DNA from: Scatophagus argus
Taxonomy: Eukaryota; Chordata; Actinopteri; Scatophagidae
Assembly: GCF_020382885.2 (NCBI RefSeq)
Contig: NC_058496.1
Coordinates: forward strand, 2,947,001 to 3,011,000
Reading direction: 5' to 3'
Length of the DNA stretch: 64,000 bases
Shown here one piece after another: positions 6,629 to 20,600 of the stretch (within the stretch, counting starts at the first letter, position 1; each line of letters begins with the position of its first letter). A program made the position numbers and the translations under genes. The notes under the pieces are model-generated. The model was not told the origin of the DNA. It did not search any database and worked only from the letters and a program-made list of their open reading frames with translations.

Positions 6629-7281
6629 GTAAGTGTTTTAAAAAATGGTCGTCTCCAATTTAACTAATCTGCCAAGCTTTTAAAGCTTTTTAACATTTTA
6701 TCCCACTGGAGTTGGAAAATCATTACCATAAGTAGTGTCAGAAATGGAAAATCTATAGAAGATATTCACCCTTCTTGTTTTCCTTTTGAGTTCAGAGGAT
6801 GTGTTGCTAAAATTTCAGGAAAGTGAATCCGAAATTTGTTCACATTTTCTTGTAGAGCATTAAATGTCATTAAATGTAGGAACTTCCACCAATCTTGCTC
6901 ATAAAGACTGCATGGATCTGGTTTGATCAGATTTTATTCGCCATAACCAAACAACCCTCAATCTGTCATCAAGGTATGATTCAAATGTTGCACTGGTGCA
7001 TGGGTGCACATGAAATCTATGAGAAGAGTACCTAGAAAAAAAAAGAAAAAGAAATATTTAAAGTTTTATATAAATTAACCAAAACGGTTCCAAATAAATG
7101 GCAGGAAATACTTTGTACCTGAAGGAGCTCATCACTTAGGATGACTGTGGAAATCTGCTTTTCAGAGCCTTTAAAGTAACACATTTCCTGTGACCTCATA
7201 GAAAATCAATATTTGCAATAGTAAACATTGCATAACCCAAATGAACATCACTGCACTTTTGAACCTTCGTCTTAGTTCACC

Positions 7282-8950
7282 ATGATGAAGGCAGCCCTGG
7301 GTATCTGGATCCTATCGGCAGTGATCTGCGTAGGAAGAGGTCATCACCATGCCGGTCATGCCAGCGTCGAAGATCATGCAGGCCAAGAAACTGCAGCTGA
7401 CAGCAGCCACAACAGCGTCTCATTGGTGACTGCAGCAAACAAAGAGTTTGCCTTCCGTCTGTACAGGAAGTTAGCAGCTCATGCCGACTCACAAGGCAAG
7501 AACATCTTCTTCTCCCCTGTTAGTGTGTCTGTTGCCTTGGCTGCTTTGTCCGTAGGAGCACGAGAGGAGACCCACCGGCAGCTTTTCAGTGGTCTGGGTT
7601 TCAACAACACCCTGCTGACCCAGTCAGATGTAGATCAGGTGTTTAAGATCCTCCTCCAAAGGGAAAGCAAGGCATCTAATGAAGACCTCAGTGAGGGGAC
7701 GGCTGTATTTGTGGACAACCGCTTCAAGCCACGACCTGAGTTCCTGGAGACCTTGAAGCAGTCCTACTTTGCAGAGGGGTTCAATGTTGACTTCACCAAA
7801 ACCACAGACAGTGCCAATACCATCAATAAGTACGTGGAGGAGAAGACCAATGGAAAGATAGACAAGCTGGTCGACAACCTGGATCCAAGCACAGTCATGT
7901 ATCTCATCAGCTACATCTACTACAAAGGTAAAAGGCTCCCTGAGATGAGATCCGATTTTCCAAAAAGCACATTTTCCATTTTTATGTATCAAACATAAGC
8001 TGTGTTTTGATTCTGCTCATCCTCATCAAACAGGAAAGTGGGCAACTCCATTTGACCCAAAGCTCACTAAGGAGGACATGTTCAGGGTGGATGGCAACAC
8101 AAAGGTTCAAAGTTGCTTCGTTAATTCAGAATAGATTGGAGATACAATAATTATGCATCTTCATGCATCTTCTTACAGTGCAATTATGGGACTTCATGTT
8201 TAAGTTAACATCTTCCAGGTTCCAGTCCAGATGATGAATATGGAGGAGCGTGTTGATACGTATTATGATCAGGCAATTAACACAACGGTCCTCCACCTGC
8301 CCTTCAACAACTCCTACTCCATGCTGCTGATGTTGCCCGATGATATGGCAACACTGGAGAACACCATCTGCCCAGGTCATGTCACCAGATGGTTGAAGTC
8401 TTTGCTGTCCAGGTTGGGAGAATCTAAAATCACCCTTAAAATTTTGATGGTATTTAAACTACTCAGCTTTTTCCTGTCATATCAGTCATGGTGCGTTTGT
8501 CTATTTCCCCATGTTTTTAGAAAACGTGACGTATATCTTCCAAAGTTCTCCATCAAGACTTCCTACACCCTGGACAGTGTGTTGACTGAAATGGGAATGA
8601 CAGACATGTTTGGTGATCGTGCAGATTTGAGTGGCATTGCAGAGGGGCAAAAACTGACAGTCTCAGAGGTAAAGATAGAATATGTTATAGCACACATGCA
8701 CTATTTTCCTTATATTCCATCCGTCATTCACCTCACTGCCTCTATTGCTCCATAGGTTGTGCACCAAGCTGCCCTGGATGTCGATGAAGCCGGAGCCACC
8801 GCTGCAGCTGCTACAGGGATCGGCATCATGCTTACGTCCGTAATGCATATCCCTATCATGAGGTTCGATCGTCCCTTTATGGTTGTCGTCACTGAACGCA
8901 GCACAGAAAACATCCTCTTTATGGGAAAGATTGTCAACCCAAACATCTGA
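7282..8950 (+). CDS. Alpha-1-antitrypsin-like serpin, copy A
   Basis: Predicted secreted clade-A serpin, a suicide inhibitor of serine proteases, like fish alpha-1-antitrypsin homologues. Coding exons are 7282-7927, 8034-8104, 8219-8412, 8521-8668 and 8756-8950 (417 aa). A signal peptide (about residues 1-20) is followed by a His-rich segment, RGHHHAGHASVEDH. Serpin signatures include NIFFSPVSVSVALAALSVGA, the FVDNRF region, a TNGKIDKLV segment and the C-terminal FDRPFMVVVTE with FMGKIVNPNI. The reactive-centre hinge starts at Glu364 and runs AGATAAAATG, consistent with an inhibitory serpin; the scissile bond lies near Thr380-Met383 (TSVM). N-glycosylation sequons occur at FNNTL, INTTV and FNNSY. 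The intron at 8105-8218 splits what is one exon in mammalian SERPINA genes. Confidence 0.88.
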
Positions 8951-9375
8951 TGTAACAAACACTTTTTGCAGAAGTACAGCTTGCATCACCTATAAAACAC
9001 TCAGAAAACATTTGTTGTGTGGTTTCTTGCCTTATTATTGAGTGTGTTTTAATGTTGTATCCATTTTAATGGTTATGATGTTTGTGTTCTATCAGTTTTT
9101 CTTTTAAAATATAAAATAACAGGGATACATTAGACAACAGTTGACATAGGCATTCAAGCTCTTCTTGGCTAACATTACTGTTTCATTGTGTGATAAGATT
9201 GAAAAAGTGTAAGAGTAAATTAATTCTGAAATAACACTGCACATATTGGACACAGTAATTTAAGTCCCCAAAGCCCCAAAGTAAAAAGTAATGGATGTCA
9301 TTAACTTGCAGTGTAACGCAAATTACTTGATGTCTCTTCACCAGAAATCAGAAATACCTCGTTTTACCTTGAAAA

Positions 9376-9660
9376 ATGTCTGGCATGTCTCAGGTTTCTT
9401 GACATGTTAGGATTCACATGTCGGAAATTGTCTTGAAAACATCACTATGAAACATGTTGAATGCATTGATTCATCAGAAAACACTGAGATGTGGTGTTTT
9501 TCACACAAGAAGCAAAGAAGGGCTGATATATCCATTAATGGAGTCCTTGTGTTCTGAATGCAGCTCACAGTAAACGCAGCGCACAGCCAAATATCTGTGA
9601 AGGCATGAAGATAACTTACGTGGCCATAGAGACTCATGACTCCTTTGGCTTACTACCGTT
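9376..9660 (+). pseudogene. Relic of dusp26 intron 1/exon 2 between serpins A and B
   Basis: Sequence from TGTCTCAGGTTTCTTGA onward matches the end of dusp26 intron 1 (compare 4230-4340). It runs into a decayed exon 2 at about 9535-9650, with GAATGCAGCTCACAG and CATAGAGACTCATGACTCCT still readable. The splice acceptor, reading frame and P-loop exon are lost. Exons 1 and 3 are absent, so this is a truncated genomic copy and not a processed pseudogene. It is probably the left end of the duplicated unit that created serpin B. Confidence 0.75.
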
Positions 9661-10020
9661 ATATAGGTCCATATATTTTCTTCTTGTAGCACTATTGATA
9701 TTGTCTCTTTTCTTGAATCTTATTTTCAATTAAGTGAACTTAAAAACATTTTAATTCTGTCAAATTTTACATGTTAAAAGGACTGAAGTTTTACATTAAA
9801 AATATGCATCTGATGCATCTTTTAGTCAGTGCCTGTCAGTCATTTATTCATCAGTGTTATTTTCACTCAGAGTCATTAATTGGGTTTGTGCTGTGTGGTA
9901 CAGTATTATCCACCGAGTAGACTTTGGATAGTGAATATCACAAGCATGTTTTTGGATTTTCTGCTTTTTGCCTTTACCCTGTGCTTTACCCTCAATTTGG
10001 TGCTATATTAAGATCGTTAC
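9661..10020. other. Upstream flank of serpin B
   Basis: AT-rich, with no gene. The part from about 9837 (TTTATTCATCAGTGTTA, then a GGGTTTGTGCTGTGTGGTAC block) resembles 6355-6420 upstream of serpin A, so it belongs to the duplicated unit. Confidence 0.45.
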
Positions 10021-10059
10021 ACAGAACAAACCCAGTGACTGAGCAAATAAGGGATTAAG

Positions 10060-10169
10060 GATAGAGAATAAACAAAGATAAAGTTCAGTATCTCTGATCA
10101 GTTTTATCAAAGGGACAACTCCCTCCTACCAGCCTGCATTTCCCTGGATATACAGTGAACCGTTAGAAG
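10060..10169 (+). promoter_or_regulatory. Serpin B promoter and non-coding exon 1 (degenerate TATA)
   Basis: This is the copy of the serpin promoter block. GAGCAAATAAGG is retained nearby (10039-10050). The TATA element has become TATCAAAG (10105-10112) and the HNF4-like site has become TAAAGTTCA. The non-coding exon ends at 10169 with a donor GTAAGAG. The two substitutions suggest weaker or altered expression of copy B; that is inference. Confidence 0.55.
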
Positions 10170-11579
10170 GTAAGAGATTATAAAGATTTAGAGAACTCAG
10201 GTGAATTGTTTAACAACATGTGTCAAGGCCAGCAGCTAATATGTTTGACATGTGTTCCCTTGAGATGTAACCCTGTGTCCTGCACATTTGTTTTGTTAGC
10301 ATTCAGTTAGCATAACATTAGCTTACAGCTTTGTAACTTGTCACTTGTTTGTGTGTGTCAAGAGCCTCTCTTCATCTGCATTTGTCTTCTTTGTTTAATT
10401 TATTCATTTCTGATCCTGAGTGACTGACAACCCACAAACTGTAACAGTGACAGACTAGATATGCTATTCTTCAAGGTCCTTAGGGTGCCTCAATAGTAAA
10501 ATCTTCTGTAACGATGGGGATGCTTGCATAATGACAGTAAAGACTCTTGAATCAGTAGTGTTGTATGCCATTACGTGGCGCTCTGAGGGAGAGATTTGTC
10601 TGTCGTGGGAAAACAAAGCTGAGTTAACCTGAAATAGAGACAGGCTGTTTTGTCAAATGGCACTGATAACTTCACAGTTAGCTTCAACTTTACTGCCGAC
10701 ATTCATGTGGACAGCAAACATAACATTAGATGATAAAAAGCACATTGTGGCTAATGTTAACCTTCATTCAGATCTCTACTAATAAACAAAGAATGATTTA
10801 TTAATTATTAATACTAGCTAACTTTGCTATTTATTCAGTTAGCTAACATTAGTCTGGCTAAAAAACTGGCAGATGCCCATTTGATGGCAATCTTAAATTG
10901 GGAAAATAAGCCTCTAAAATGATGCTAACAAGATTTAAACATCATTACGTTATTTAATCACAACATTGTTTTCCTTACTACTGCAAATTCACTCTAAGTG
11001 CTGACAGAAATACTGCTGTCTCTCTGCTGCTTCTCTGGTCTAGCAAATTAAAAAGGTTTCCGTGAAAGATAAAACTTTGAGCTTATCAGCCCTCCCTCGG
11101 CTCTACGTTGTTGCGACATATAGGTTTTCATGACACAGTAAAACGTTCAGACACTCAGACACTTAGATTACGCTTCAAAATGAAACACGATCAACTGAGA
11201 TGCTGGGATTTCATTTGCAGACATTGCAGCAATGTGTATGTACTTACTGGATAAAGTACCCATTAATTAAATGCAACAATCAAATACATGAAATCTTTAA
11301 GTATTACTTAGGTTTAATAGTTTCTGTAAAGTTTAACAGTGAAAAAATAAAAAAAAATGCATAATCACTGCATGGATGTTTTTTGATCAACTGTCATCAG
11401 ATTCTGTTTCAGATGTTGCTAAAACTGTTTCAGAGAGTTGTCAGGAAATGCTTTGTTCATGAAGGAACTCGTTATTCAAAATTAAAGCAACACATTTACT
11501 CTGACCTCATAGAAAATCAATATTTGCACTAGCAAACATTATGTAATCTAAATGAATAATCGCAGCACTTTTGTCTTAG
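10170..11579 (+). other. Serpin B intron 1 with extra segment
   Basis: The intron is about 1.41 kb, against about 0.65 kb in copy A and 0.67 kb in copy C. Sequence similar to copy C stops near 10290 and resumes near 11290, so about 1 kb in the middle is unique to B. That stretch is AT-rich with repeated GTTAGC/CTAACATTA words and has no coding frame; it could be an inserted non-autonomous element. Confidence 0.45.
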
Positions 11580-11585
11580 TTCACC

Positions 11586-13278
11586 ATGATGAAGGCAGCC
11601 CTGGGTATCTGGATCCTGTGGGCGGTGATCTGCACCGGGAGAGGCCATTACTATTTTGGTTATGCCAGAGTGAATGATCATGCAGGCCAAGAAAGTGCAG
11701 CTGACAGCAGCCACAACAGCGTCTCATTGGTGACTGCAGCAAACAAAGAGTTTGCCTTCCGTCTGTACAGGAAGTTAGCAGCTCATGCCGACTCACAAGG
11801 CAAGAACATCTTCTTCTCCCCTGTTAGTGTGTCTGTTGCCTTGGCTGCTTTGTCCGTAGGAGCACGAGAGGAGACCCACCGGCAGCTTTTCAGTGGTCTG
11901 GGTTTCAACAACACCCTACTGACCCAGTCAGATGTAGATCAGGTGTTTAAGATCCTCCTCCAAAGGGCAAACAAGACATCTAATGAAGACCTCAGTGAGG
12001 GGACGGCTGTATTTGTGGACAACCGCTTCAAGCCACGACCTGAGTTCCTGGAGACCTTGAAGCAGTCCTACTTTGCAGAGGGGTTCAATTTTGACTTCAC
12101 CAAAACCACAGACAGTGCCAATACCATCAATAAGTACGTGGAGGAGAAGACCAATGGAAAGATAGACAAGCTGGTCGACAGCCTGGATCCAAGCACAGTC
12201 ATGTATCTCATCAGCTACATCTACTTCAAAGGTAAAAGGCTCCCTGAGATGAGATCCGGTTTGTTCTTTGCTTGCTCATTGTTAGGTCATGCCCGTCAGT
12301 TTGCTGTATCAACCATAAGTTGATACTGCTTATCGTCATCAAACAGGAAAGTGGGCAACTCCATTTGATCCGAGGCTCACCTGGCCGGACATATTCATGG
12401 TGGATGATTACACCAAGGTTCAGAGTTTCTTAATTTATTTGATAAGGATTGGAGTCACAATAATTATGCATCACTGTGAGTCCTTCATACTTCATACATG
12501 TGAAAAGGGACTTTCATGTTTAAATTATCATCTTCCAGGTTCCAGTCCAGATGATGAATATGGAGAAGCGCTTTTATGCCTATTATGACCCTATGATTCA
12601 GACATCAGTCCTCCACCTGCCCTTGGACAGCTGCTACTCCATGCTTCTGATGTTGCCCAACAATATGGCAACACTGGAGAATGTCATTAGCCCAGATTTT
12701 GTCAGCAAATGGTTGAGGTTAATGGAGTGCAGGTTGGGAAAATCTAAAATCCTCCTAAAATTATTGGTTTTAAATATGGAAGATTTTACAGAATTTTAAA
12801 TGGCTCCTCTTGTATCTTTGTCTATTTCCCAACTTTATTTCAGAACAATTTACGTTTCTCTTCCAAAATTCTCCATCAAGACTTTGTACTCACTGAAGGA
12901 TGTGTTGACTGAAATGGGAATGACAGACATGTTTGGTGATCGTGCAGATTTGAGTGGCATTGCAGAGGGGCAAAACCTGGCCGTCTCAGAGGTAAAGATA
13001 GAATATGTTAATGCACACACATGCAGTATTTCCTTCCTTATATTCCATCCATCATTCACCTCACTGCCTCTATTGCTCCATAGGTTGTGCACCAAGCTGC
13101 CCTGGATGTCGATGAGGTTGGAGTCACTGCTGCAGCTGCTACAGGGATCGGCATCATGGTTACATCTTCCTTCTACACCCCTATTTTGCAGTTCAATCAT
13201 CCCTTTATGGTCATCATCACTGAAAGCAACACAAAAAACATCCTCTTCATGGGAAAGATCATCAACCCAAACGTCTGA
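11586..13278 (+). CDS. Alpha-1-antitrypsin-like serpin, copy B
   Basis: Second tandem serpin, a predicted secreted protease inhibitor. Exons are 11586-12231, 12347-12417, 12539-12732, 12844-12991 and 13084-13278; each has the same length as in copies A and C (417 aa), and all splice sites are retained. It is the most divergent copy. The segment after the signal peptide is RGHYYFGYARVNDH, in place of the His-rich version. Exon 4 and the distal reactive-centre loop differ: after the hinge EVGVTAAAATG the loop reads MVTSSFYTPILQFNHPF, so the scissile region is TSSFY (residues 380-384). The hinge still fits an inhibitory serpin. Sequons FNNTL and ANKTS are present; the INTTV and FNNSY sites of A and C are lost. 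Its promoter has a degenerate TATA box. Confidence 0.87.
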
Positions 13279-13850
13279 TGTAACAAACACTTTGTTTTTA
13301 CAGCTGTTGCATCACCTATTAAACATTCAGATATTTTGTTATTGAGTGTGTTTTAATGTTTTAACAGTTTTGATGGTTGTTTTCTATTGAGTTTTATTCT
13401 AAAATAACACAGGGATCGGAAGCATTGGACAACAGATAAAATTAGCATTCAACCTCTTAATTGCTAACATTTCCAGTTAAGATAAGATAAGATAATCCTT
13501 TATTAGTCCCATTACTGGGAAATTACAGTTGGTTATGCAAATAGAAAAGAAAAGAAGTACATTCATTTCGAAATATCATCACACATCTTGGACACATTTA
13601 TTTAAGCTCTAAAAAACAGAATGGATGTTATTGACTTGTAACGTAACATTAATAATGTCTTCACCAAACATAAGAAATATGTTGCTTTGCCTTGAGAAAC
13701 AGCCCAACGTTCCTCTGGATTTTCAGTATCCATTTACTGATCAGTCGAGAATCAATGAAATGATAACGATTTGTCAGATTGCCTATGTTCACGCAAAGTG
13801 AAACCTGGAACACAGTGGAAATGATCCTTTTGCTAACTGCATTTGACCCT
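13279..13850. other. Serpin B 3' flank
   Basis: The 3' UTR-like stretch (to about 13400) resembles those of A and C. A short retroposon tail follows at 13477-13529. Sequence around 13560-13700 resembles 9230-9360 after serpin A, which shows how far the duplicated unit extends 3' of the gene. No gene is seen. Confidence 0.45.
13477..13529. repeat. Retroposon tail fragment
   Basis: GATAAGATAAGATAATCC followed by TTTATTAGTCCCATTACTGG and AAATTACAG resembles the 3' end of a common teleost LINE/SINE. It is absent at the equivalent place after serpin A, so it inserted after the duplication or was lost there. Confidence 0.55.
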
Positions 13851-13859
13851 CTAAATCAG

Positions 13860-14185
13860 AACATTACGTCATTAGAAAATGGCCGCCATGTGTACGGTCT
13901 GCCTAGCTGTGGAATTAATAAATCCTGAGAAGAAGAAGTTTGCAAGGAGAGGCAGCGCATGGAGTCAATAAAAGAATAATACACCTCCTTTAGTAGGAGA
14001 GCAGGCTGGAAGGGCAACATTTCTGCAGAATAATTGATGCTTTTAGAATTTATAGATACAATACAAATGCTTAAAATAAAGTTAGCAAGGCAACCAAAGT
14101 TTGTGTCAATAGACAATGTTATTAACAAATAACAGTAACAGGAGATAGACAACTTGTTTTGGTGAGAAAAGTACTTACTGAGTCA
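13860..14185 (+). pseudogene. Relic of carnmt1 exon 1 and start of its intron 1
   Basis: The region aligns by eye with 17530-17885 around the true carnmt1 exon 1. Shared words include AGAAGAAGAAGTTTGC, AGGCTGGAAGGGCAACATTT, CTGCAGAATAATTGATGC, GCTTAAAATAA and TTTGTGTCAATAGACAATG. The start codon and frame are broken by substitutions and indels. Similarity stops near 14185, where dusp26-like sequence starts, so this is a duplication junction. Only the first exon and its flanks are present. Confidence 0.75.
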
Positions 14186-14189
14186 TCTT

Positions 14190-14480
14190 TAACTTGTGTA
14201 AACTACAGCTCTGCTATGTGAGTTTCCACTGAGGGAAGGCGTGAAAGCGTGTCTCAGGTTTCTTAAAATGTGCTGATTTCTGTGTCTGAAATTGTCTTGT
14301 AAACATCAATCCATCCCTATGAAATATATCAGGAAACATAGAGATGATGTGTTTTGCAGACACAGTACAGAAAAGCAGGCTGGTCTGTCCATGCATGGAG
14401 TCACCCACATCCTGAATGCAGCTCACAGTAAATGGAGAGTAGGTGAACCTCACCTACATCGACACAGAGGCTCAGGGCAA
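14190..14480 (+). pseudogene. Relic of dusp26 intron 1/exon 2 between serpins B and C
   Basis: Matches the dusp26 intron 1 end and exon 2 (4190-4480). The acceptor TTTTGCAG and the words ATGCATGGAGTCACCCACAT and CCTGAATGCAGCTCACAG are preserved, then an internal deletion breaks the frame after AGTAAATGGAGAG. It is better preserved than the relic at 9376-9660. It abuts the carnmt1 relic on its left. Exons 1 and 3 are missing. Confidence 0.78.
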
Positions 14481-14610
14481 ATGTCTGGTGGTCAGTTTTC
14501 TCATGAATGCGACTTTCGTATAAACACTGACAGTGTGAGTTTTTGCCTTTACCCTGTGCACTCAGCATGATGCTATGCTAAGACAGTAATCATTACACAG
14601 AACAAATGCA

Positions 14611-14737
14611 GTGACCGAGCAAATAAGAGATTGAGATAGAGGATAAACAAAGACAAAGTTCAGGTGAGCAGTTTTATAAAAGAGCCATCACCCGTACAGC
14701 CTGTGCTTTGCTGGACATTACAGCAAACCAGGAGAAG
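14611..14737 (+). promoter_or_regulatory. Serpin C promoter and non-coding exon 1
   Basis: GAGCAAATAAGAG and CAAAGTTCA (14654-14662) lead to TATAAAAG (14675-14682). A short non-coding exon ends at 14737 with donor GTAAGC. The layout is the same as before copy A, with both the TATA box and the HNF4-like motif intact. Exon 2 starts at about 15412. Confidence 0.62.
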
Positions 14738-15417
14738 GTAAGCAAAGCTTTAAAGAGCTCAGATGAAATGTTTAACAATATGGTCTTAAGTCGAAGGACT
14801 CGGCTAACAGTTAAGAGCTATGTTTGACATCTTGGTTTTGTTTGAGACGTAACTGTGTATCACACATTTCAAATTTATTACATAGTAGTCAAACGATGAA
14901 TTACTGTAAAATTTTGATGGCTTTAAAAAACCTCATATCTCATAAAAATCCGGGGTCATTCTGAAATATATCAATCTTACTTAGTGTTTAACAATTCCTG
15001 CTAAGTTTAACAGCCAAAAAATCTGTTAATCATGAGGACTGCATGGTTGTGGTTTGATTGATTTCATTAGCAACGATACAATCCATCACTTATCATCAGA
15101 TCCTGATTCAAATGTTCTGTGTTGGTGCATGGACATAATTAACATCACTGTCTCTAAATTAACCCCGCCAACGTCAAACCAGTGAAAATAATGTGAAAAT
15201 AACCAAAACTGATCCAAAGAATTGGCAGAAAATACTTTGTACCTGAAGGAGCTCATCGCTGAATGAATTGATGATTTGATAATTTGAAAACTGCTTTTCA
15301 GGGCCTTTAAAGCAATACATTCACTGTAACTTTTAAGAAAATCAATATTTGCAATAGCAAACATTGCATAACCCAAATGAACATCACTGCACTTTTGAAC
15401 TTTCATCTTAGTTCACC

Positions 15418-17105
15418 ATGATGAAGGCAGCCCTGGGTATCTGGATCCTATCGGCAGTGATCTGCGTAGGAAGAGGTCATCACCATGCCGGTCATGCCAG
15501 CGTCGAAGATCATGCAGGCCAAGAAACTGCAGCTGACAGCAGCCACAACAGCGTCTCACTGGTGACTGCAGCAAACAAAGAGTTTGCCTTCCGTCTGTAC
15601 AGGAAGTTAGCAGCTCATGCCGACTCACAAGGCAAGAACATCTTCTTCTCCCCTGTTAGTGTGTCTGTTGCCTTGGCTGCTTTGTCCGTAGGAGCACGAG
15701 AGGAGACCCACCGGCAGCTTTTCAGTGGTCTGGGTTTCAACAACACCCTACTGACCCAGTCAGATGTAGATCAGGTGTTTAAGATCCTCCTCCAAAGGGC
15801 AAACAAGACATCTAATGAAGACCTCAGTGAGGGGACGGCTGTATTTGTGGACAACCGCTTCAAGCCACGACCTGAGTTCCTGGAGACCTTGAAGCAGTCC
15901 TACTTTGCAGAGGGGTTCAATGTTGACTTCACCAAAACCACAGACAGTGCCAATACCATCAATAAGTACGTGGAGGAGAAGACCAATGGAAAGATAGACA
16001 AGCTGGTCGACAACCTGGATCCAAGCACAGTCATGTATCTCATCAGCTACATCTACTTCAAAGGTAAAAGGCTCCCTGAGATGAGATCCGATTTTCCAAA
16101 AAGCACATTTTCCGTTTTTATGTATCAAACATAAGCTGTGTTTTGATTCTGCTCATCCTCATCAAACAGGAAAGTGGGCAACTCCATTTGACCCAAAGCT
16201 CACTAAGGAGGACATGTTCAGGGTGGATGGCAACACAAAGGTTCAAAGTTGCTTCATTAATTCAGAATAGATTGGAGATACAATAATTATGCATCTTCAT
16301 GCATCTTCTTACAGTACAATTATGGGACTTCATGTTTAAGTTAACATCTTCCAGGTTCCAGTCCAGATGATGAATATGGAGGAGCGTGTTGATACGTATT
16401 ATGATCAGGCAATTAACACAACGGTCCTCCACCTGCCCTTCAACAACTCCTACTCCATGCTGCTGATGTTGCCCGATGATATGGCAACACTGGAGAACAC
16501 CATCTGCCCAGGTCATGTCACCAAATGGTTGAAGTGGATGAAGTCCAGGTTGGGGAATCTAAAATCACCCTTAAATTCTTGATGTTTAATATGGATGTTT
16601 TGAAAATGTTTAAACTACTCAACTTTTTCCTGTCAGATCAGTCACTGTGTGTCTATTTACCAATTTTTCTTTTAGGACATACGATATATTTGTTCCAAAG
16701 TTCTCCATCAAGACTTCCTACACCCTGGACAGTGTGTTGACTGAAATGGGAATGACAGACATGTTTGGTGATCGTGCAGATTTGAGTGGCATTGCAGAGG
16801 GGCAAAAACTGACAGTCTCAGAGGTAAAGATAGAGTATGTTATAGCACACATGCACTATTTTCCTTATATTCCACCCATCATTCACCTCACTGCCTCTAT
16901 TGCTCCATAGGTTGTGCACCAAGCTGCCCTGGATGTCGATGAAGCCGGAGCCACCGCTGCAGCTGCTACAGGGATCGGGATCACACTTTTGTCCTTCCGC
17001 CACATCCCTATCATGAGGTTCGATCGTCCCTTTATGGTCATCGTCACTGAACACAACACAAAAGACATCCTCTTTATGGGAAAGATTGTCAACCCAAACA
17101 TCTGA
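15418..17105 (+). CDS. Alpha-1-antitrypsin-like serpin, copy C
   Basis: Third tandem serpin, 417 aa. Exons are 15418-16063, 16170-16240, 16355-16548, 16676-16823 and 16911-17105. The signal peptide and His-rich N-terminus are identical to copy A, and intron 2 is nearly identical to A. Several sites instead match copy B (QRANKTSNEDL, IYFKG), so C is a mosaic of the two. The reactive-centre loop has the A-type hinge (EAGATAAAATGIGI), then TLLSFRHIPIMRF; residues 378-384 differ from both other copies, giving a candidate scissile region of LSFR (380-383). This suggests a different target protease (inference). Upstream TATA and HNF4-like motifs are intact. carnmt1 starts 518 bp downstream on the same strand. 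Confidence 0.88.
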
Positions 17106-17622: not shown

Positions 17623-20600
17623 ATGGCCGAAACAGCAAGAGAAGGACCGCAAGGTGGACCGTATTTTCACAAAGAGAGAATTAAATACAGCCCCGAGGAG
17701 GAGGCCAGGCTGGAAAGGGAGCATTTCTGGAGAATAATCGATGCCTTTAGGTTTTACAGGTATAATATCGGTGCTTAAAATAAAATAAGAGCCGGGCGAC
17801 GTCAGTTTGTGTCAATAGACAATGTCGTTAGCAAATAAGCAAAGGACAGTTAACTCGTTCTGGAGGGAAGATCACACACTGAGGTAGTTCAACGTTATTC
17901 AGACATTCGCTAGTGCTTCCCACCGTTACTTAACTTGAATTTAAGCAGCGCCCTGTGGCAGTTATTTATTAATCATGTGTCTTGAGCCCAACTCGCACCA
18001 CTTCTACTCCATGATTGACTTTCTCCAACACTTAGAACAAACAAACTTAGAGAGAAACGCTGTCACATAAGTTAGCAGCCTTATTTGAAGACAATAATAT
18101 AAGAGGCATTTGGACCAGTGTGTGTGAAACCCCCAAATCGATCCTCAGGTTTGTAACTCGTATGATAATCAGATTTGCTGGCCGATATATACACCAAGAA
18201 ATCAAATAATTATGCACGATATTGTTTTCATTTGAAGACTTTTTATGCCACTGATATGATGATAATAGCATAGTAATGCAAAGTATAATATTTCAAGTAG
18301 CAGTGCGAAAAATACATTTGAACTATCTTAAATAGATAAAACAATAATATAAACAATAAAACCACCCAACAAAAACAGTTACTAAAATATGAATAATATG
18401 GGACATGGGTATTGTCCTTCCTTTCTCAACAGTCGATGTAAGCCAGTTGAGCTTTTGCCACTTTAAGTTGATATGTAAGATGAATTGATAACATAATTAT
18501 TGCGACAGGCTAAGTGACAGCTGACATGAACCCTTGTGTCTCTTCTGTTCAGAGTTCATGTCGAGGAGCAGGTTAAGCGTGCCAAGCTTCAGTTTCGGAG
18601 TCTGCCACAGCACCACCAGGATTTGCTGCCAGATGTTTTGTCTAACCTGGCGCGAATCAGCCAGTGTGCAGACTGCAACCAGGAGCTGCTGCAGGCCATT
18701 GTTCACAACAGCCTCCACATGTTTGAGAACATTGAATACGGCGAGAGGGTAAGGCTTGACTTAGACCAGGGCCCGATTTCAGAAAGCAGGTTCAGAGGAT
18801 ATCAAAGTATGTTAAGTCTAAAATGAGGGAAGACTCTACAGCCTGTCAAAGCACATACTGGAAGGCATTCATCTCAGGAGTTTGTGTCTTTAGAAACATT
18901 GAAATCCCCGTTAGATGCACTATATAAGCAATATGTGTAAGATAAATGTAAAGGTCTGCATTATAATGCATTCATTTTCACTGCTCCACTGCATTTAAAT
19001 GGCCTCTCTACTGTTTATTTAACCACTGCCGTGGCGAACCATGGTGCTGAAACTCCATGGGTGATGGAGTCCCATCACACAACGTATCTTGCAGTGACCA
19101 TAGTCGGACTTGATTGAGCTAATTATGGTTGGCTCTACTGGAACCAAAAGTTATTTAAATTTGATTTCTGAAACAGAAAGTCATCTATAGTCCACAGGTA
19201 GTCTGCTGTAAACATACAATAGACACACAGGTTGTAGTTTATTTTTTTCATTCACTTAAGGAATTTAGGTAAAGATATTTTATCTTCATCCAACTTCCAG
19301 GAGGATCCAAAGAAGTTGCGACCGTCCACTACGTTTGACATGGACAAACTCAAGTCCACCATAAAGCAGTTTGTCAGAGACTGGAGCGAGGTGGGCCGGG
19401 CTGAGAGGGACTCCTGCTACCGGCCAATCATCCAAGAGATCCAAAGACTCTTCCCAAGTGACCAATAGTAGGAAACTTATGCTCACTCACCACATGCATG
19501 CCAAGAAAACAAAGGACTCAGACACAGAGATATGTGAAGACTAAATGATAGAATCACCTTTCACACGGCTGTGGTCTCAGAACACCTTGTAATAATGCAG
19601 ATAATATGACTTACCACATGTTTTCTATGTGATATGTGCATTTTGTACATTTTATTATGTCAGTGATGTGTCTAAGGTGAGCGTGCTGGTTCCGGGTGCT
19701 GGGCTCGGCCGGCTTGCCTGGGAAATCGCTCGGCTCGGCTACATTTGCCAAGGCAACGAATGGAGCTTCTTCATGCTCTTCTCTTCAAACTTTGTTCTCA
19801 ATAGGTAAATCATGCTATGCTATGCTATGTACCTCTGTCTGTGTACCCCCCCTCGCTCTCTGTTGTTGTGATTTGGTGCTATATGACGACATAATTTGAA
19901 AAAATTGAATTGAATTACACACTGACACCACACCATCACTCTTGTAACACCCAGGCACTCTCACCTTCTGTACATTCATGCAGGATATCTCAGCTCGCTT
20001 GAGGTAGAACTGTCTATCAGTCATGCTTAACTCTACAAGTATGTGTCGCTGATCACAAATGAAGTCAGAACACATAATTCGCATGTTGGGCACTACATTT
20101 CTGGCGTCATGCTTCGCAGAGTATCGCTTCCGTCCCTCCGCCTGTAGTAATACATTTTGACTGCTCCATACAGGTGTGAACAGGTGAACTCGCTGACCCT
20201 GTACCCCTGGATCCACCAGTTCAGCAACAACAAGAAATTCTCCGACCAAACGCGACCAATCAGGTTCCCCGATGTCAACCCTCAGAGCTTACCACAGAAT
20301 GCAGACTTCTCCATGGTGGCAGGAGACTTTGTGGAAGTCTACAGTGACTCAGGTTAGTGAAAGCTGTGTGGATCTTGCACCTTTGCTGTGTCCCTGATTT
20401 AGTTTGCAGTCAAAACACCCGCAAGGCAAATGAGCTAATGAGGACTTCAGTCAACTTTGTGTTTACCTCAACCCCTCCAGCAATCTTCCCTGAAAGAATT
20501 AACCGTTTGGTCCCCAAAATATGCTTTGAGGAAGAAGCTCACGCGGGACCAGCTACAGTTTAGTTTTGATGCTCTCCACGTTGATTCAGTCAGCTCAGAT

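Follow-up and report, generated by a model that had tools for sequence, protein, structure and literature searches.

Three old tandem serpin genes of Scatophagus argus form a gene conversion mosaic in which selection may hold the reactive-centre loops apart

In a 64,000-nucleotide stretch of the Scatophagus argus genome (contig NC_058496.1, positions 2,947,001 to 3,011,000; hereafter the window, from whose first letter positions are counted), three serpin genes lie in tandem on the plus strand. Gene models were assembled on GT-AG introns, and the copies were named A, B and C in plus-strand order.

7282-8950, plus strand: serpin copy A (Spn_215c type); exons 7282-7927, 8034-8104, 8219-8412, 8521-8668 and 8756-8950; 417 aa, open frame; PF00079 E 4.8e-118.
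11586-13278, plus strand: serpin copy B; exons 11586-12231, 12347-12417, 12539-12732, 12844-12991 and 13084-13278; 417 aa; PF00079 E 4e-115.
15418-17105, plus strand: serpin copy C; exons 15418-16063, 16170-16240, 16355-16548, 16676-16823 and 16911-17105; 417 aa; PF00079 E 5.1e-119.

The cluster occupies 7282-17105; the initial annotation of this DNA had placed its start at 8756, which is exon 5 of copy A only. The exon lengths given there (646, 71, 194, 148 and 195 nt) were recovered in all three copies, with intact splice sites and open 417-residue frames, and each copy covers positions 2-370 of 370 in the Pfam Serpin profile PF00079 (E 4e-115 or better). Its description of the three as near-identical suits A and C (94.7% protein identity) and does not suit B (82-83%). 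With copy C as DNA query against the 570.7-Mb genome, all three candidates returned were the cluster's own copies, each placed once, and this DNA search of the genome detected no fourth copy. A scan of copy A against NCBIfam, a prokaryote-centred library, gave no match. No stop codon interrupts the copy A frame between exon 3 and the end of intron 4 (8204-8755), and a transcript that retained intron 3 (108 nt) would stay in frame; this is probably chance.

Introns were numbered on alpha-1-antitrypsin (A1AT), using K312 as K290 and E364 as E342 for anchors. Computed from the exon lengths, the introns of all three copies fall at 192a, 215c, 282b and 331c. Positions 192a, 282b and 331c constitute the intron set of group V2 (clade A-like) serpins and are all occupied. 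The further intron that marks Spn_215c is also present, as the 71-nt exon 2 following 192a ends at 215c.

8105-8218, plus strand: diagnostic 215c intron of copy A, position from exon lengths.
12418-12538, plus strand: diagnostic 215c intron of copy B, position from exon lengths.
16241-16354, plus strand: diagnostic 215c intron of copy C, position from exon lengths.

The 215c intron begins with GTTC, as does the downstream exon, which leaves a short direct repeat at the intron ends. Such repeats would be anticipated where an intron arose through DNA repair or a tandem duplication. On their intron pattern, the three copies are classified as the ray-finned-fish group V2 serpin Spn_215c, which was described from Takifugu rubripes and Tetraodon nigroviridis and whose origin is called unclear (PMC2746811, Ragg et al. 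2009; PMC4476131, Kumar 2015). Pufferfish Spn_215c resembles the present genes in its group V2 introns and the 215c intron, and the exon flanks of the latter in fugu, CAAG/GTTC (PMC2746811, Table 1; slash, intron), are the same as in copy B; A and C read AAAG/GTTC. The present locus differs in its three tandem copies, conversion mosaic and differing loops.

Elsewhere in the same genome, a serpina1-like gene with an MPMS loop lies on another contig (C19:16738036) and lacks the 215c intron. Of six paralogues compared, none is closer to B and C (41-42% identity). The cluster copies do not show the canonical serpina1 structure and reactive centre of a SERPINA1 orthologue. The initial annotation's view of an inhibitory-type cluster at a different chromosomal location is supported: the copies are clade A-like and lie apart from the serpina1-like gene. 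The genome also contains a ZPI-like gene (TPYSLP), a candidate Spn_94a and a heparin-cofactor-II-like gene, all named by loop and intron; in the last of these the exon flanks of one intron, ACAG/CTCC, match the published 241c intron. Introns of this sort are indicative of a ray-finned fish from the lineage that Ragg et al. studied. In a tree of nine serpins, the branch joining the cluster received 81/84 and a partial serpinb row fell within the clade A-like rows; because of this weak branch and the misplaced row, the tree is not trusted as a guide to the descent of the cluster. A Pfam search of the genome returned 105 exon-level serpin matches, spread over many other loci. Two serpin matches 7805 bp apart, at C6:2464908 and C6:2472713, have identical scores for each listed exon. 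They may represent a clade B-like serpin that was duplicated in tandem very recently, or a region duplicated by the assembly.

The duplicates are old. Eleven alignable intergenic segment pairs were 69.9-80.0% identical, with 280 of 1372 aligned bases differing (~20%, a lower bound because alignable segments alone were counted), and introns 1-3 of copy B differ from those of A and C by 22-31%; both values argue for old duplications. Intron 4 of copy B differs by 10-12% and is partly converted. Outside the coding regions, A and C differ at 30% of aligned sites upstream and 48% downstream, which is partly loss of alignability. A remnant of the neighbouring carnosine N-methyltransferase (CARNMT1-like) gene lies inside the cluster.

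13973-14132, plus strand, between B and C: decayed copy of the apparent first exon (17677-17838) of the CARNMT1-like gene, 76.8% identical.

The exon status of 17677-17838 was read from the sequence, and the CARME domain lies further downstream. The presence of this decayed exon between B and C indicates that the duplicated unit carried the neighbour's 5′ end, and the two segments were used as a neutral clock of the duplication. The recent origin implied by the term near-identical was thus not borne out: the copies are old and have been partly homogenised by gene conversion.

Pairwise differences were segmented into converted and unconverted stretches with a two-state hidden Markov model (HMM).

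A 7373-7953, B 11677-12257, C 15509-16089, plus strand: exon 1 core running into intron 1, shared by the three copies at ~99% identity apart from 7664-7672.
A 7200-8398, C 15336-16534, plus strand: A-C converted tract, 13 differences in 1199 nt.
A 8538-8823, C 16693-16978, plus strand: A-C converted tract ending directly before the loop, 3 differences in 286 nt.

At 7664-7672, inside the otherwise shared exon 1 tract, A is unlike both B and C. Protein constraint alone was rejected as the cause of the exon 1 identity, because the tract runs on into intron 1, whose start is identical along with the synonymous sites. Between A and B, synonymous differences number 1 in 123 sites in codons 38-215, compared with 14.2 in 51 in codons 217-295. 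Within the gene body, uninterrupted identity extended over at most 222 nt (A-B) and 362 nt (B-C), neither matched in any of 5000 permutations, and 249 nt (A-C), matched in 7 of 5000. Over the gene body only, the two-state model gained 62 (A-C), 93 (A-B) and 104 (B-C) log units over a one-rate model. The mosaic of near identity is, from its sequence pattern, attributed to ectopic gene conversion among the copies.

In the reactive-centre loop, residues 378-385 read MLTSVMHI (A), MVTSSFYT (B) and TLLSFRHI (C), and an inhibitory-type hinge is present in all three copies (Glu364 at P17, Gly366 at P15, Ala369-372 at P12-P9), both as initially annotated. P1 was placed by the P17-P1 rule, 16 residues from Glu364, and is predicted at residue 380. 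The predicted P1′ residue, Ser381, shares an alignment column with the Ser found in the MPMS loop and in the TPYS loop, and the cluster loops are 2 residues longer than the serpina1 loop on the prime side. The P1-P1′ pair is predicted to be Thr-Ser in A and B and Leu-Ser in C, and only C would differ.

8825-8848, codons 377-384, plus strand: copy A P4-P4′, IMLT/SVMH (slash, predicted scissile bond), inside the A-C unconverted island.
13153-13176, codons 377-384, plus strand: copy B P4-P4′, IMVT/SSFY, from gene model and alignment.
16980-17003, codons 377-384, plus strand: copy C P4-P4′, ITLL/SFRH, from gene model and alignment.

An A-C unconverted island at 8824-8848 (11 differences in 25 nt), with both flanks converted, corresponds to P4-P4′ plus one base. 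Complete cover of P4-P4′ as observed arose in 29 of 1669 rotations. The flanks had been described as almost unchanged between A and C, and amino acids 354-377 and 384-396 are indeed identical. In codons 376-385, the A-C proportions of differing synonymous (pS) and non-synonymous (pN) sites are 0.51 and 0.32, and both are zero in codons 311-375 and 386-395. Synonymous A-C differences number 3.7 in 7.2 sites in codons 376-385, compared with 3 in ~270 in the coding sequence apart from the loop and 296-310 (Fisher test on rounded counts, p 5e-6). The high synonymous divergence suggests that the loop is an old island and not a product of fresh point mutations. Across the three pairs, P4-P4′ (24 nt) has 10, 10 and 11 differences, and codons 376-385 (30 nt) have 11 (A-C), 11 (A-B) and 13 (B-C). 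Of 410 windows eight codons long, those starting at 300, 377 and 378 are the only three with at least 10 differences in every pair; P4-P4′, more divergent than the gene body, is thereby one of the two top stretches, the other being 296-310.

Loop divergence was also compared with other parts of the locus; the three pairwise comparisons are mutually dependent, and the counts are small. It exceeded the intergenic level (280/1372) modestly, with one-sided p values of 0.031 (A-C), 0.031 (A-B) and 0.004 (B-C). Non-synonymous loop divergence exceeded that of exons 2-3 in B-C (p 0.0008) and A-B (p 0.04), on rounded counts.

These results suggest selection as the keeper of the divergent loops. We consider it probable that, in these three old tandem Spn_215c copies, the scaffold evolves in concert while selection holds the bait loops apart. 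Each copy would code for a suicide inhibitor that is secreted and acts on serine proteases, secretion and inhibition both being predictions. Much of the serpin scaffold is held alike by ectopic gene conversion among the copies, and the bait, P4-P4′, has escaped it and remains different in each copy. The most likely reason is that selection removes any conversion overwriting the bait, since such an event would cost the copy its own protease target. With Thr at P1, A and B may target elastase-like proteases, which take a small P1; C, with Leu, may target proteases of the chymotrypsin, cathepsin G or chymase type. According to the Ohta review (PMC3966226), conversion combined with selection raises both synonymous and non-synonymous divergence at the selected site, and reactive-centre hypervariability is explained by conversion followed by selection. 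The raised pS and pN at the loop fit such a process, because it is predicted to raise both (PMC3966226).

The divergence is not confined to the loop, and several observations weigh against selection there. The initial annotation had placed the divergence exactly at the loop, which is too strong. Of the 22 A-C amino acid differences, 4 fall in 378-385, where chance predicts 0.42 (binomial p 0.00075), and others cluster elsewhere: 9/22 in 296-310 (p 3e-8), 5/22 in 397-405 (p 9e-5) and 3/22 in 128-131 (p 0.001), stretches chosen post hoc from the data. Likewise, all three copies differ at seven positions, four of them in 296-310 and two in 378-385. The stretch 296-310 belongs to a divergent patch that crosses an intron.

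8399-8537, plus strand: second A-C divergence patch, comprising the exon 3 end, intron 3 and the exon 4 start (codons ~300-310).

This patch consists of HMM islands at 8399-8407, 8441-8452 and 8488-8537, split by two short converted-like pieces; a further A-C gene-body island besides the loop lies at 8898-8909. Intron 3 inside it differs between A and C at 21 of 106 sites, with 23 gap positions, so that 296-310 need not be selected. As the patch is as diverged as the loop and crosses an intron, islands can persist without loop selection.

The tests of divergence give further points on this side. The initial annotation had proposed that the ratio of non-synonymous to synonymous divergence (dN/dS) be higher in the loop (378-385) than in the rest of the protein (376-385 removed). 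It was higher in B-C (1.83 vs 0.59) and lower in A-C (0.72 vs 0.94) and A-B (0.32 vs 0.71); dN/dS is hard to interpret where conversion acts. Relative to the introns, the loop excess was weak for all changes (p 0.09-0.28), and for non-synonymous changes only, p was 0.015 in B-C, 0.27 in A-B and 0.12 in A-C. None of these pairwise tests is independent of the others. In addition, P14 is Ala367 in A and C and Val367 in B, not Thr or Ser. Small uncharged P14 residues are tolerated in some inhibitors, so P14 is not decisive.

From such observations one could argue that conversion tracts merely happened to miss the loop, as they missed other stretches, in a part of the protein under low constraint; the different loops would then require no diversifying selection. 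We regard this neutral mosaic as unlikely, though it deserves serious weight. It draws on the other gene-body islands, on the 13% of rotations in which some island overlaps the loop by chance, and on a loop divergence not clearly over the intron level. It does not readily account for an island that covers P4-P4′ fully and almost nothing besides, for the scarcity of comparable eight-codon windows, or for a loop divergence over the intergenic level, with non-synonymous divergence over that of exons 2-3 in B-C and A-B.

The patch at 296-310 could also be drawn into the function. We take codons ~300-310 to correspond to A1AT 278-288, from the end of helix H to strand s2C, presumably adjacent to the strand of sheet C that comes after the loop. 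P4-P4′ and this helix H/s2C patch might then form a two-part specificity module carved by conversion and selection, with targets set jointly by loop and exosite, a proposal that we regard as doubtful.

It is improbable that one copy received its loop by a short conversion from another serpin that has since been lost or has diverged. Such an import would lift synonymous and amino acid differences together, as observed, but a donor is lacking: the DNA search with copy C found just the three cluster copies. When the window was searched together with 30 loci (several of them the cluster itself; some serpin loci, such as the C18 cluster, not included), no donor was found either, the best non-self match to a 30-nt loop being 20 of 30 nt, as in unrelated DNA.

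The model behind the initial annotation, in which near-identical recent duplicates had their loops changed fast by point mutation under positive selection, was rejected and appears very improbable. The low overall A-C divergence and the clustered replacements are in its favour. Amino acid selection alone, however, would not increase synonymous change, and the synonymous divergence in codons 376-385 is too high; the surroundings of A and C, 30% and 48% different, are too old. Assembly error or merged haplotypes appear highly improbable, as the three genes have separate diverged flanks (B also diverged introns), are all open with intact splice sites, and are each put at a single place by the genome search.

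Comparable systems are known. For rodent Serpina1/Serpina3 clusters, Barbour 2002 is reportedly the source cited. By intron pattern the rodent clusters are not orthologous to the fish cluster, and mammalian genes are not known to carry the 215c intron. The likeness lies in the tandem arrangement of clade A serpins and in their hypervariable reactive loops, which are established in rodents. In the woodrat study (PMC12646145), selected sites fall in the loop above expectation, 8/48 for SERPINA1-like and 9/37 for SERPINA3-like genes. The rodent clusters are mammalian, and 12 woodrat SERPINA3 paralogues were expressed and tested (PMC12646145). In the Innan two-locus model, as presented in the same Ohta review (PMC3966226), selection blocks conversion at the selected site; there it is applied to human RHCE/RHD, which are likewise duplicates kept similar by homogenisation except for a divergent stretch where selection presumably acts. 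RHCE and RHD differ in being blood-group antigens, not inhibitors, and in having polymorphism data (PMC3966226). The P4-P1′ residues of human alpha-1-antichymotrypsin (SERPINA3; chain 9d7k_S), ITLL/S, are identical to those of copy C; orthology is not claimed, and just the two Leu are notable, because the ZPI-like serpin of the same fish already has I-T-x-x-S.

The fish cluster fits a known kind, conversion and selection acting on hypervariable-loop serpins. What is new is the assignment to Spn_215c, the tandem of three, the map of conversion tracts and the almost exact coincidence of the island with P4-P4′; a literature search, with subscription literature mostly outside it, found no title reporting this fish cluster. 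Selection holding the loops apart would mean that the little-studied, fish-specific Spn_215c genes probably serve as a set of inhibitors that diversify. Being small, the cluster lends itself as a natural experiment on whether a loop that contacts proteases is protected by selection against gene conversion, and it is a warning that dN/dS alone can misread such clusters.

The gene order in the window is a BAG-domain gene, the three serpins, the CARNMT1-like gene with its CARME domain, and a TRPM gene. A reading frame at 48.3-48.9 kb, without a Pfam match, is presumably RORB-like. Dinucleotide microsatellites, visible as repetitive frames, lie at 49.6-50.0 kb, 55.1-56.3 kb and 62.8-63.6 kb.

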